Below, one piece after another: positions 21,977 to 31,100 of a stretch of DNA of 36,256 nt. Made by a program: the position numbers and the translations under genes. The notes beneath the pieces are model-generated. The model saw only the letters and a list, made by a program, of their open reading frames with translations, did not search any database and was not told where the DNA came from. Origin of the DNA: Oscillospiraceae bacterium. GTDB lineage: Bacteria; Bacillota; Clostridia; Oscillospirales; CAG-272. How positions within the stretch are numbered: position 1 is the stretch's first letter; each line of letters begins with the position of its first letter. The DNA lies in NCBI GenBank assembly GCA_015064965.1, contig SVRG01000007.1, positions 1 to 36,256 of the forward strand. Reading direction: 5' to 3'.

Positions 21977-24727
21977 TTAGAACACGAGTTTCTTAAACAT
22001 CTGAAGAACATGGAGAATATCAACATCACGCATACCGTAGAAAGCAGGAAGATAAGCATTATAAAGATCTGTGGGCGTTCCGTTGAGCAAGTAGGAAAGG
22101 CTGACAAGCGCATCACCAATGTCAACCACGCCGTCAACGTTAAGGTCTTCAACCTTTATAACCTCATTGGTAAGTCCTTCTGCAAGGTTTACGGTAATGG
22201 AACCGGTGTTTTTGAGGATGTCATACTTTGCAGACTCCAGAGAACCGCCAAGCCAGCTAAACTCGCGAACGGGCTTGCCTTCAGGCCATGTTTTGAGGTT
22301 GAGAGTAATTGTTCCGGTAAGATAGTTCTGTCCGCAAGCACCGTTACGGATATTATCACGGATAACAACATTAGGACCTACATTAATTACCATGTTGCCG
22401 CTATAAGTGCCGTAAATTGCCTTGGAATAATTGCCGTTATAGAGATAGTTGCCGCCCATGAAGTAGCTGAAATCACCGCCGTTTACGGTAATTGTGCAAT
22501 CTTCATCAGATCCAACGGACTCACGGCTGTTATACCAACCGGAAGCCTTATCCTCGCTAAAGGAAATCACGCCTGCTGCCAAAAGTGCCGCTTTTGATTT
22601 GAATGTTTCGGTAAATGTTACATTGTTATAGCCGCATGCAATATGAATTGCGCCGGTAGATGTAGTGTAAATACCGATATTATCGAAAGTAGCATCATTC
22701 TTGATGTGGAAATGCTTTGCGTTTGTATGAAGGGATGCGCCCTCGCCATATCCCTTGATAGTGAGGTTTTTAACATTTACAGGGGTTGGCATACCGTACT
22801 GAGCGTCGCCAATCTTTTCGTACTTATATTCACCAATGATGTGAATGGTGGAGCCGTCAACAGCCTTTGCAAATGCTATTGCAAGGTTGGATGTGGGGTT
22901 TTCAAGAGTACATTCTGCATTGTTTGTACCGTATACCACACCCGCTACCGGTTCTTCGGGCGCTTCAGGAGCAACATAGATGTCCATTTGACCAAAGTTT
23001 TCGGGAACTGTAATTCCGTTTCTGATAGCGTCATAAATCGCATCTGCATAAATTGCATAGCCTGCTACATGGGGATGGAGGTTGTCGCCGGAAAGGAGCT
23101 CGCCTGCAAGCGCCTCATCAAGTGTGAGTGCATAGAGGTCGATGTAGGTTACATCCTTGCCTGCTGCGTCAAGTGCATTGAGCACAACATCCTGAATTCC
23201 GCGGATATTTGCAACTGCTGCAACATCGGTGGATTTACGATAGATAGCACTTGTACCGTATACCATTTCGGTAGAGTCAAGTTCTTCATAACCGAGCACA
23301 AATGCCTCATATTCTTCAGCATATCTGTCGCCCATACCGTATGTGTATGTTGTGGAGTTTGCATCATTGGTGCCAAGACCGATGATTACGATATCGGGGT
23401 CGGTTTCTTCCATGGAAAGAGTGTACGCAAGTCCCTCGGTATAGCCAAGGCCGCTGTATTGCATAACCTTGGTTGCGCCGCAACCGTAGTTTGCAACTAC
23501 AACATCCTCGCCAAGATCAAACATCTTTTTGTAAAGCTGTGCAGGATAAGAGCCAAGCTCAAAGTTTTCAACTTTGTTAATAACCGCTCTTGAACCCTGA
23601 GTGATAGAGTCGCCGATACATGCAATACGGGTGGGCTCGTCATATTTCTGCGCCGCGCCGTTTACGCTGTCAAAACGAACATAATCAACATTTTTTGCAG
23701 TGGGATAAGTAAGAGTTGCTGTTGCAGAACCGTCAGTATAACCCTTAACCTGAGTTGCATCAAGAATAATGCCGTCTGCAAGATCTGCCGCTTCTGCTAC
23801 GGTAACGGTGTAGTCACCGCGAACAAGCTGCTGGTATGCAGCGGTGATCTGTGTTGCACCAACTTCAAAGCCGTTAAGTTTACCGCCGTTGATATTGATA
23901 GCGATTTCACCGTCAATTGCATAGAACTTGCTATCAGATTTTGTGTACTGCGAGCAAGCGCTTGTACGTGTGGAAGTCTGACCGATATAACCCTGCGCAT
24001 AAATAGGAGTATTGAATGTACCGCCGTTAATGGTGAGGATTGCATCATCTGCAAGGATGCTCATACCGGAAATCGAGAAAGCCTTGTCAACCTTGAGTGC
24101 AGTATCTGCATCATAGGAAACAGTGCTGCCGAAGGTACCGCCATTGATAGTAATAGTAATGGGAGCAGCGATGGAGCCAAGGAGTGATGAATAGCCGAGA
24201 CGGTAGCTACCGCCCATGAAATGGCGGAATGTACCGCCGTCTACTACGATATCATAAGGCAGCTCGCAAACGAGAATCTTGTTTTCTGCATAATACTTCT
24301 CGGGGGTTGCAGTAGTCTCACCGCTTGTGCTTTCAAAATTGTGATAACCGCCGTAGAAATCAAGCGTACCTGTAACTGCGAATTTGTTTGTAAAGGTTAC
24401 AGAGTTAAAACCGCCGTAAATCACGCCTTCGGTTGCCTCAACAGGAAGGTCAAGAGTGATTACATTGTCATTTGTGTTCTTTTCAAACATAAGAGAGCCG
24501 TCGAGAATAAGCTTTGCACCATTTTCAGAGGTGATGGTGAGCGCGCCCGCCTGCTCAGGAATTACAGTGCCGTCTGCTACGGTAACATCCTCGGTGAGCG
24601 TAACAGTGCCGCCGGCACCGTTTAAAGCCGCTACTGCATCAAGAAGTCCGTCAGCAGCAAATGCACTTACTGCCATGATTGCCGCAAGTGTCAGCACTAC
24701 CAAAAGTGATAACAGTTTTTTGTTCAT
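21977..24727 (-). CDS. Secreted SGNH/GDSL hydrolase flanked by beta-strand repeat modules, C-terminal dockerin-like module (paralogue A)
   Basis: Signal peptide MNKKLLSLLVVLTLAAIMAVSAFA; many (I/T)TxNGGTF repeats; GDSITQG, GTNDA and DNLHPH SGNH blocks; C-terminal DLNVDGVVDIGDALVSLSYLL calcium-loop-like segment. ATG start at 24727; the ORF track begins at a TTG upstream. Confidence 0.88.
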   Translation of the reverse strand: MNKKLLSLLVVLTLAAIMAVSAFAADGLLDAVAALNGAGGTVTLTEDVTVADGTVIPEQAGALTITSENGAKLILDGSLMFEKNTNDNVITLDLPVEATEGVIYGGFNSVTFTNKFAVTGTLDFYGGYHNFESTSGETTATPEKYYAENKILVCELPYDIVVDGGTFRHFMGGSYRLGYSSLLGSIAAPITITINGGTFGSTVSYDADTALKVDKAFSISGMSILADDAILTINGGTFNTPIYAQGYIGQTSTRTSACSQYTKSDSKFYAIDGEIAININGGKLNGFEVGATQITAAYQQLVRGDYTVTVAEAADLADGIILDATQVKGYTDGSATATLTYPTAKNVDYVRFDSVNGAAQKYDEPTRIACIGDSITQGSRAVINKVENFELGSYPAQLYKKMFDLGEDVVVANYGCGATKVMQYSGLGYTEGLAYTLSMEETDPDIVIIGLGTNDANSTTYTYGMGDRYAEEYEAFVLGYEELDSTEMVYGTSAIYRKSTDVAAVANIRGIQDVVLNALDAAGKDVTYIDLYALTLDEALAGELLSGDNLHPHVAGYAIYADAIYDAIRNGITVPENFGQMDIYVAPEAPEEPVAGVVYGTNNAECTLENPTSNLAIAFAKAVDGSTIHIIGEYKYEKIGDAQYGMPTPVNVKNLTIKGYGEGASLHTNAKHFHIKNDATFDNIGIYTTSTGAIHIACGYNNVTFTETFKSKAALLAAGVISFSEDKASGWYNSRESVGSDEDCTITVNGGDFSYFMGGNYLYNGNYSKAIYGTYSGNMVINVGPNVVIRDNIRNGACGQNYLTGTITLNLKTWPEGKPVREFSWLGGSLESAKYDILKNTGSITVNLAEGLTNEVIKVEDLNVDGVVDIGDALVSLSYLLNGTPTDLYNAYLPAFYGMRDVDILHVLQMFKKLVF

Positions 24728-24743
24728 TTTATACAACCTTTCC

Positions 24744-24757
24744 GGCTTTTTAAAGCC
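24744..24757 (-). promoter_or_regulatory. 5'-leader hairpin of SGNH paralogue A
   Basis: Reverse strand GGCTTTAAAAAGCC, 16 nt upstream of the ATG, followed by GGAAAGGTTGTATAAAATG; counterpart at 30931-30944. Confidence 0.5.
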
Positions 24758-24849
24758 ATATTATTTCCAATATATATAATAACATATTTATAATTATTTT
24801 CAATAGAAAAAACTATTATCAATCAAATATCTTTTTGCACCGTCACCAA

Positions 24850-25929: not shown

Positions 25930-25961
25930 ATACTTATCAATTTTTAACTATGGAGGAAAAC

Positions 25962-28130: not shown

Positions 28131-30914
28131 TTATTTAACAAGATTCTGGATGAAGTGGAGAACATCAAGAATGGAGGTATAGGGTTCAAGACCGTAGTAG
28201 TACTTTTCGCCCATTTTTCTGCCTGCAACGATACCCTTGAGGAGTCCAACCATATCGCCAAAGTCGCCGGTGTCGCCGTCGCCGTCAAAGTCGAGAGGAC
28301 GGCAAATTACACTGTCAACGCCTTCTGCAACATTGATGTTAACTGTACCGGTATTCTGCGCAGGATCGAACACGATGGGATCTTCAACAGTGCCGCACTT
28401 GCCGTGCTCGCTGATGCCCCATGTTCCCCAACCGTTAACGTTTGCGTTAATGGTACCGGTGAGATAGTTCATGCCGTTGATACCTGTGCAGGACGCATTG
28501 CTCTTACCAACAATTACGCCTTCGCCCACAGTAGCAGTCATTGTGCCGCTGTAAACACCAAAGGGAGCATTGCTTGCAAAACGACCGTTACCGAATACAA
28601 AGTTGAGATAAGTACCGCCGTTTACAGTAACGGTGCAATCTACATCAGTAGAAGCGGAAGCAACGCTGTCAAATGTAGCGGTAACTTCAGGATCAGCCTG
28701 AGCAAATACATTGTAGCCTGCGTAGAAGTTCCAGTTGCCGGAAGTTTTAACAGTATCGGTAATTTCAATATCATTGTAGCAACCGATAATGGAAACAGCA
28801 GATTTGCCCGCTTTAAGTGTTACATTATCAATCTTAGTTTCTGTGCCAACCTTAAGGGTATTTGCGTCAGGAGTGCAAAGAACGGCACCTTCACCCTCGC
28901 CTACTACAATAAGCTTTGAGGGAGCCATGGAAAGATATGCATTGCCGCCTGCCTTGCCGCCCTGATCGTCCACCCATGTGGATGTGCCGATGATGTGGAG
29001 AGTTACCTCTGCATCGCGCTTCATAAGGTCGAATGCATACTCAATGTTTTTGATAGGATCGTTCTTTGTACCTGCACCGAATTTTTCACTTGTACCGGTG
29101 TCGGAAACATAGATATCAGTGAGGTGATAATCCTCTACAGGAGCGGTTTTGTTTTCGGTCCATGCATCGTAGCAAGCCTTGCCCATCATTTTGAGGCCGG
29201 GGCCTGCAGGATGGAGATGCTCGTGAGCCTTGCCGTTTTCATCCTTGAAAAGCGCATCGGTGATGGCTGCTTCACGGGTAAGACCGAAAAGGTCAACAAA
29301 TACATACTTAGAATCTTCAGCAGCAAGCTTCTTTGCAATTCTTTCCTGTGTAGGGCGAATTACTGCAGATGCACGGTGATCTGCAATGTGATTTGTGGTG
29401 TAACGATAAATAGCATTTGTAATGAATACCTTGTCTGCTACCTTACCCATCTCGGTGATGAAGTATTCATACTGTTCTTCAAACTCGAGAAGCGCACCGT
29501 TAGTGCCGCCTGCGCCCTGTGCATCATTGGTACCCATTGCAAAGAATACAATGTCAGCATCGGTTTCGTTTCTTACGAGATCCCATGTAAAGAGATCGCC
29601 ATAGTAACGTCCGTTGGAGGGGAGGAAGCCGGATGCAGAAACACCGAAGTTACCAACTATAACTTCCTTGTTTGCTTCTTCACAGTATGCAAGGAACTGT
29701 GCAGGATAGGACTCGGTAAGACGGTCTACACCTGCGGCAGCGGGAGCATAGCCCTCAGTGATGGAGTCACCGATAAATACTACACGGATGGGTTCATCAT
29801 AAGTCTGGTCAACATTATTAACTACGTCAAAACGAACAGGGGTAACGGTAACGCCGGAATAAAGGAGAGTAGCCTTGTTTTCGCTGCCCTCACGAGCCTT
29901 AACCTGGGTTGCGTCAAATACGGTGCCTGCTTTAAATGTACCGCCGACAACGGTAACATCAAAGTTACCTCTCATAAGCTGAGTATAAGCTGCCTGAGTG
30001 TAAACTGCGCCCAAGCTGCCGCCGTTGAAAGTACCGCCCTCGATGTTGATTTCAACATCGCCATCAATCGCATAGTACTTTTCATCGGTAGAAATGATTG
30101 CACTGTTCAAAGAAGCTGCGCCTGCAAAGACGCCCATTTTTCCCTGTGCATAAATAGGCATGTTAAAGGTACCGCCGTAAATATTGAGAGTAGCATCGTC
30201 AGCAAGAATAGACATGCCGGAAATGGAGAATACTTCATATTCCTTGTTATTAGCAATAGGATAGCTGCCTGCCAAACCAAAAGTACCGCCATTGACAGTA
30301 ATGGTGATAGGAGCCGCAATTGCACCTGCACGCTGCTCTACGCCGTTACGAAGGCTACCACCGCAAAAACGTACAAAAGTACCGTTATTAACGGTGATGG
30401 AATAAGGAATTTCGGTAACTGCTGCAGTGTCGTCTTCGGTTTCGCCAAGGTGAACACCGCCGTAGAAGTTGAGGCTGCCTCCGCCACTGGAGGTAACAAC
30501 AAAGTTTTCAGTAAGTACCACGTTGTTAAAGCCACCAAAGAAGAAGCATGCATAGGTAGCAGTTACATCAACGGGACAGTCAAAGGTAACAACATTGGTA
30601 TTTGTGTTGTTAGCAAGCTGAAAACGTTGGGAAACAAGAAGTTTTGCTCCGTTCTGTGCAACAAAAGCGAGATCAGCAGACTGTTCGGGAACAGTCGTCT
30701 TTACGCTGACAGAAGTATCGCCTACCAAAACAACTCTACCGCCCTCGCCTGCAAGCGCTTCAAAAGCATCTGCAAGAGTTCCGACAGGAGCGCTTGAAGA
30801 TGTACCGTCGCCGGTACCTCCGTCTTTCACATAAACATCCTTTGCGCTTGCACCAAACGCAAGGAGACTGACAAGCAAAAGCGCTGTCAAAAATGCTAAG
30901 ATTTTTTTGTTCAT
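28131..30914 (-). CDS. Secreted SGNH/GDSL hydrolase-like protein flanked by beta-strand repeat modules, C-terminal dockerin-like module (paralogue B)
   Basis: Signal peptide MNKKILAFLTALLLVSLLAFGASA; ITVNGGTF repeats; FIGDSITEG, GTNDAQG and EHLHPAG; C-terminal DFDGDGDTGDFGDMVGLLKGI. ATG start at 30914; same architecture as 21977-24727. Confidence 0.87.
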   Translation of the reverse strand: MNKKILAFLTALLLVSLLAFGASAKDVYVKDGGTGDGTSSSAPVGTLADAFEALAGEGGRVVLVGDTSVSVKTTVPEQSADLAFVAQNGAKLLVSQRFQLANNTNTNVVTFDCPVDVTATYACFFFGGFNNVVLTENFVVTSSGGGSLNFYGGVHLGETEDDTAAVTEIPYSITVNNGTFVRFCGGSLRNGVEQRAGAIAAPITITVNGGTFGLAGSYPIANNKEYEVFSISGMSILADDATLNIYGGTFNMPIYAQGKMGVFAGAASLNSAIISTDEKYYAIDGDVEINIEGGTFNGGSLGAVYTQAAYTQLMRGNFDVTVVGGTFKAGTVFDATQVKAREGSENKATLLYSGVTVTPVRFDVVNNVDQTYDEPIRVVFIGDSITEGYAPAAAGVDRLTESYPAQFLAYCEEANKEVIVGNFGVSASGFLPSNGRYYGDLFTWDLVRNETDADIVFFAMGTNDAQGAGGTNGALLEFEEQYEYFITEMGKVADKVFITNAIYRYTTNHIADHRASAVIRPTQERIAKKLAAEDSKYVFVDLFGLTREAAITDALFKDENGKAHEHLHPAGPGLKMMGKACYDAWTENKTAPVEDYHLTDIYVSDTGTSEKFGAGTKNDPIKNIEYAFDLMKRDAEVTLHIIGTSTWVDDQGGKAGGNAYLSMAPSKLIVVGEGEGAVLCTPDANTLKVGTETKIDNVTLKAGKSAVSIIGCYNDIEITDTVKTSGNWNFYAGYNVFAQADPEVTATFDSVASASTDVDCTVTVNGGTYLNFVFGNGRFASNAPFGVYSGTMTATVGEGVIVGKSNASCTGINGMNYLTGTINANVNGWGTWGISEHGKCGTVEDPIVFDPAQNTGTVNINVAEGVDSVICRPLDFDGDGDTGDFGDMVGLLKGIVAGRKMGEKYYYGLEPYTSILDVLHFIQNLVK

Positions 30915-30930
30915 ATTATACAACCTTTCT

Positions 30931-30944: not shown

Positions 30945-31100
30945 GATTATTCTTCAACTTTAATAATAACACTATATGGAAAATAAATCAAGAAAAAAAT
31001 TTGTAAAATCTTTTATATAATAAATATTTTTAAAAAAACTCTACAAATTTGATTTCAACTATGTTATAATTAAAAAAATGCTTTTTCCCGGAGGACACAA

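Follow-up and report, generated by a model that had tools for sequence, protein, structure and literature searches.

A Shine-Dalgarno-abutting leader hairpin in secreted GDSL/SGNH genes of a gut Oscillospiraceae genus, and its possible role in post-transcriptional control

Several bacterial mRNAs are known to owe their persistence to a stem-loop in the leader. In Bacillus subtilis, a 5' stem-loop together with the Shine-Dalgarno (SD) sequence gives the aprE mRNA a long life (Hambraeus 2000, 2002, as cited in PMC11805744 and PMC7509114), and in Helicobacter pylori, breaking the stem of the stem-loop in the vacA 5' untranslated region (UTR) lowers the mRNA half-life (PMC4843948). The 5'-terminal stem-loops of Escherichia coli ompA and papA are likewise stabilizing (Emory 1992, Bricker 1999, as cited in PMC3997798). 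Here we describe a small hairpin in the leaders of two genes for secreted GDSL/SGNH proteins, A and B, encoded on a 36,256-nucleotide stretch ("the window"; contig SVRG01000007.1 of assembly GCA_015064965.1, Oscillospiraceae bacterium). By analogy, the kind of control it may exert would be a familiar one, of the aprE/vacA leader type, met in this case in a single group of gut bacteria about which little is known.

Genes A (21977..24727, minus strand; 916 amino acids, beginning MNKKLLSLL...) and B (28131..30914, minus strand; 927 amino acids) encode proteins that are 37% identical, with start codons at 24727 and 30914. Direct sequence reading and folding gave a hairpin of 14 nucleotides (nt) in each leader, with a stem of 5 base pairs (bp) and a 4-nt loop: GGCTT-TAAA-AAGCC in A (GGCTTTAAAAAGCC; 24757-24744, minus strand), where an extra outer U-G pair is possible, and GCCTT-TTAA-AAGGC in B (GCCTTTTAAAAGGC; 30944-30931, minus strand), which is also a perfect 14-bp palindrome in DNA. 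Folded in isolation, each reaches about -6 kcal/mol. Both stems end exactly 16 nt before the ATG, with GGAAAGGTTGTATAAA following the hairpin in A and AGAAAGGTTGTATAAT in B, and both are followed after 1 nt by a strong ribosome-binding site, GAAAGG, placed 9 nt ahead of the ATG (24737..24742 and 30924..30929, minus strand). In the second stem pair, A has G-C and B has C-G. A sequence-only reading of the window had pointed out the two hairpins, their identical distance to the start codon, and the swapped pair, all of which can be read directly from the letters; it had also stated that other secreted-protein genes in the window (25962, 32888) carry no such hairpin, and inspection of the leaders at 25950/25962 and 32888 agreed. 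As a separate observation, a core resembling TGTRYA (TGTATA, TGTGCA, TGTACA) is kept throughout the subfamily in the spacers between SD and ATG (24728-24736 and 30915-30923, minus strand), which is more than a plain spacer would need.

A promoter scan placed sigma-70-type boxes directly upstream of both hairpins. For A, these are a -35-like TTGAAA (24798..24803) and a -10 TATTAT with a preceding TG (24776..24781), with 10/12 matches and a 16-bp spacer; for B, a -35-like TTGATT (30986..30991) and a -10 TATTAT with a preceding TG (30963..30968), with a 17-bp spacer (all on the minus strand). The end of the -10 box lies 18 nt from the hairpin in A and B alike. From the usual spacing, transcription is predicted to start at about 24769 and 30956, such that the RNA would begin about 12 nt ahead of the hairpin and have a leader of about 42 nt; because the hairpin lies downstream of these predicted starts, it should be transcribed. 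The upstream flanks of the two genes do resemble each other, as the sequence-only reading had noted, although the similarity is largely that of the promoter -10 region (TGTTATTAT).

Compared with the described systems, A and B share with aprE a secreted-enzyme gene, a 5' UTR predicted to be short, a predicted stem-loop with a strong SD, and a host that has RNase J and RNase Y; both RNases are encoded in the genome of the window, so mRNA decay would be expected to proceed as in other Firmicutes. Unlike aprE, A and B have a predicted tail of about 12 nt and a stem abutting the SD, and the likeness proposed is one of layout. With vacA they have in common a small stem-loop, predicted for A and B to lie in the 5' UTR, and a gene product that is a large secreted protein, but the organism and gene are unrelated, and the effect is experimental in vacA and predicted in A and B. 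The ompA and papA hairpins resemble those predicted here in being 5' proximal and ahead of the ribosome site, yet they counter RNase E and do so from the 5' terminus, whereas the RNases and the layout differ here.

How often such an arrangement would arise by chance was gauged against shuffled and background leaders. When the A and B leaders were each shuffled with dinucleotides preserved, a hairpin at least as stable as that observed and ending 0-2 nt before GAAAGG appeared at a frequency of about 1-2%. Two random substitutions in the stem leave all five pairs intact in 7% of cases (5% through hits to the same pair); therefore, the single swap between A and B is by itself weak evidence. Both proteins are members of a large paralogous family of GDSL/beta-helix secreted proteins, which a protein search found to be essentially confined to six genomes (G000-G005) of one genus. 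The background comprised 67 distinct leaders from fetched sequences, nearly all of this genus, with GAAAGG, 7-12 nt, and ATGAANAAR. The five best SD-abutting hairpins among them all came from this one gene family, namely, A, the orthologue of A in G004 (G004A), B, and members from G003 and G001; these were at or below -2.9 kcal/mol, and none of the remaining leaders fell below -1.7 kcal/mol. The hairpins of G003 and G001 have another sequence and another loop at the same position (shuffle P of about 0.01 each). For the six family members outside discovery, the combined shuffle P was 0.012, and for G003 and G001 among them it was 0.0009.

The leaders of relatives, taken from family members beginning MNKK or MNRK, extend this pattern. 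In the protein tree, A groups with G004A (GGCTGTAAAAAGCC) and with the members from G003 (TGCCAGAAAGGCG) and G001 (TTTGCAATCAAAAGCAGA), and the hairpin is present in every member of this four-species clade despite diverged sequences. When stem arms were aligned by position, two-sided changes occurred at all four pairs, 90% of cells were paired, and the covariation score was matched in 1 of 500 shuffles and in 0 slid controls. Since the arms had been picked by structure and gave only 5 distinct rows, we regard the covariation as supportive but not conclusive; it suggests that base pairing has been kept more than the letters themselves. The sequence-only reading had held that a lack of further instances would speak against the element, and further instances were found in relatives; the support from covariation is modest. 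Its term "conserved" fits insofar as the hairpin recurs in orthologues but is too broad otherwise, the recurrence being limited to one genus and one subfamily.

The reading that we tentatively favor is that of a cis-acting hairpin, abutting the SD, through which the stability of the mRNA or the loading of ribosomes is tuned in A and B. A leader of about 42 nt would carry a weak-to-moderate hairpin (4-6 bp) about 12 nt from its predicted 5' end, which would be transcribed and fold so as to end one nucleotide ahead of the SD. The hairpin and the bound ribosome may together shield the 5' end from the RNase J/RNase Y pathway, and the hairpin may also keep the ribosome-binding site clear of upstream pairing, with the result that output of a large secreted enzyme would be raised and steadied. 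The leader that B now has would be the product of exchange with an A-type leader. A post-transcriptional cis element, as the sequence-only reading had also proposed, is the best-supported account and is partly supported by the promoter upstream, by recurrence with changed sequence, and by the lack of any sign of an operator regulon, albeit for a narrower set of genes than "conserved" implied.

Several points weigh against it. The hairpin is missing from this position in the orthologue of B (G004B) and in both G005 genes, and that of G002 is weak (GGAAACTAATTCC; P = 0.03); whole-leader folding energies are ordinary (z of about -1); and the independent sequences behind the structure-guided alignment are few. 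In addition, the layout, with a predicted single-stranded 5' tail of 12 nt and a single nucleotide between stem and SD, departs from the ideal for a stabilizer as outlined for B. subtilis in PMC7509114. Because tail and SD abutment fit a simple stabilizer poorly, the broad wording, stability together with ribosome loading, is preferred. The first two points, along with the confinement of the hairpin to one genus and the chance probability of about 5% for the one A/B swap, are also what would be seen if the hairpin had no function and were incidental to an inherited leader, shared by A, its orthologue, and B through descent or exchange and present elsewhere by chance. We consider this a serious possibility, though less probable than the favored reading, given that G003 and G001 place hairpins of differing sequence and loop at the same site, that the five best of 67 leaders come from one gene family, and that two-sided changes affect all four pairs.

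The histories of the two leaders appear to differ from those of their genes. In the protein tree, B and G004B lie far from the hairpin-bearing A clade, yet the best matches to the B leader among 68 are those of G004A and A (alignment scores of 31 and 25; mean, -3; standard deviation, 8). The B leader is 73% identical to that of A over 75 nt versus 61% to that of its own orthologue (bootstrap P of about 0.03 for the difference), and this closeness hints at leader exchange. The simplest account is that B probably acquired an A-type leader through exchange between paralogues; shared constraint with loss in G004B could also have produced the pattern. An extension of this idea, which we consider unlikely, is that promoter start region, SD-abutting hairpin, and SD spacer form a mobile leader module, specific to the genus and swapped among paralogues of an expanding family of secreted GDSL/beta-helix proteins, which would thereby come under common post-transcriptional control. 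In G004 (L005/G004:C11:50245-55906), the B and A orthologues are arranged in tandem with 150-250 nt between them; the gap between A and B in the window is about 3.4 kb and holds a GH43-like gene on the opposite strand.

Less likely still is a translational switch, in which the hairpin, perhaps extended by an AUAAU(C)-GGUUGU helix over the SD, would hide the ribosome site until temperature, a protein, or an RNA opened it. The minimum free energy (MFE) structure of B does pair AUAAUC with GGUUGU around the hairpin, and G003 can pair GCAAC with GUUGU. However, this outer helix over the SD was rejected as a shared feature, being weak in A and not kept in its nearest orthologue, G004A, and no Rfam family matched: the window had no match at the gathering threshold, and the leader loci had only chance-level matches at a permissive one. 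Least probable is a DNA operator, with a repressor binding the palindrome, which spans roughly +12 to +26. The perfect 14-bp palindrome of B does lie where roadblock operators are placed, but letters change while pairing is kept, loop lengths differ in a manner unlike sites of one shared protein, and GSCTTTNNAAAGSC shows no genome-wide excess (46 matches with at most 1 mismatch versus 56 for the reversed control). These same observations favor the RNA element over a DNA site. An upstream reading frame was likewise rejected as a shared cause of conservation: a 12-codon frame (ATG GCT TTA ... AAA TGA; 24724-24759, minus strand) extends across the A hairpin and into the start codon, overlapping it as ATGA, but the corresponding frame, which runs from ATG to TGA in A and G004A and begins with GTG in G003, has no start codon in B and G001.

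A covariance model of both leaders gave strong matches in seven genomes solely to this gene family, and across 118 genomes from the wider taxonomic family it found no credible instance outside the genus; matches beyond the genus (E of 0.006-0.04 per genome) fell before unrelated genes or outside leaders, as chance predicts. Viral contigs had no match to the leader element. A pattern search of the window's own genome returned a sole other GAAAGGNTGTATAANATG site (C82), which lacks the hairpin. In another genus, one locus (L173, 1501-1542) has a GTCGT..ACGAC hairpin, one nucleotide, GAAAGGTAGTATCAT/GAAAGGTAGTATCATATG, and the start of a secreted-protein gene; its E value of 0.007 per genome across the 118 genomes is at chance level.

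The family itself is large, with 20 protein matches in the window's genome, 25 in G001, and open frames of up to about 2,800 amino acids, and the named records of the genus are metagenome bins of Clostridia, obtained from the gut of goat and roe deer. The C terminus of A (21977-22150) contains a weak dockerin-like stretch (Dockerin_1; E of 0.049, under the cut-off), and cohesin domains at or above the cut-off are encoded in all six genomes (in G000 at C75, C41, and C100); cellulosome-like attachment is possible. The hairpin would leave the general picture of gene control unchanged. If the favored reading is true, the locus would offer an example of paralogues exchanging a leader rather than a gene, and of cis-acting RNA control, in uncultured Clostridia of the ruminant gut, over enzymes that are secreted and possibly attached to cellulosomes.
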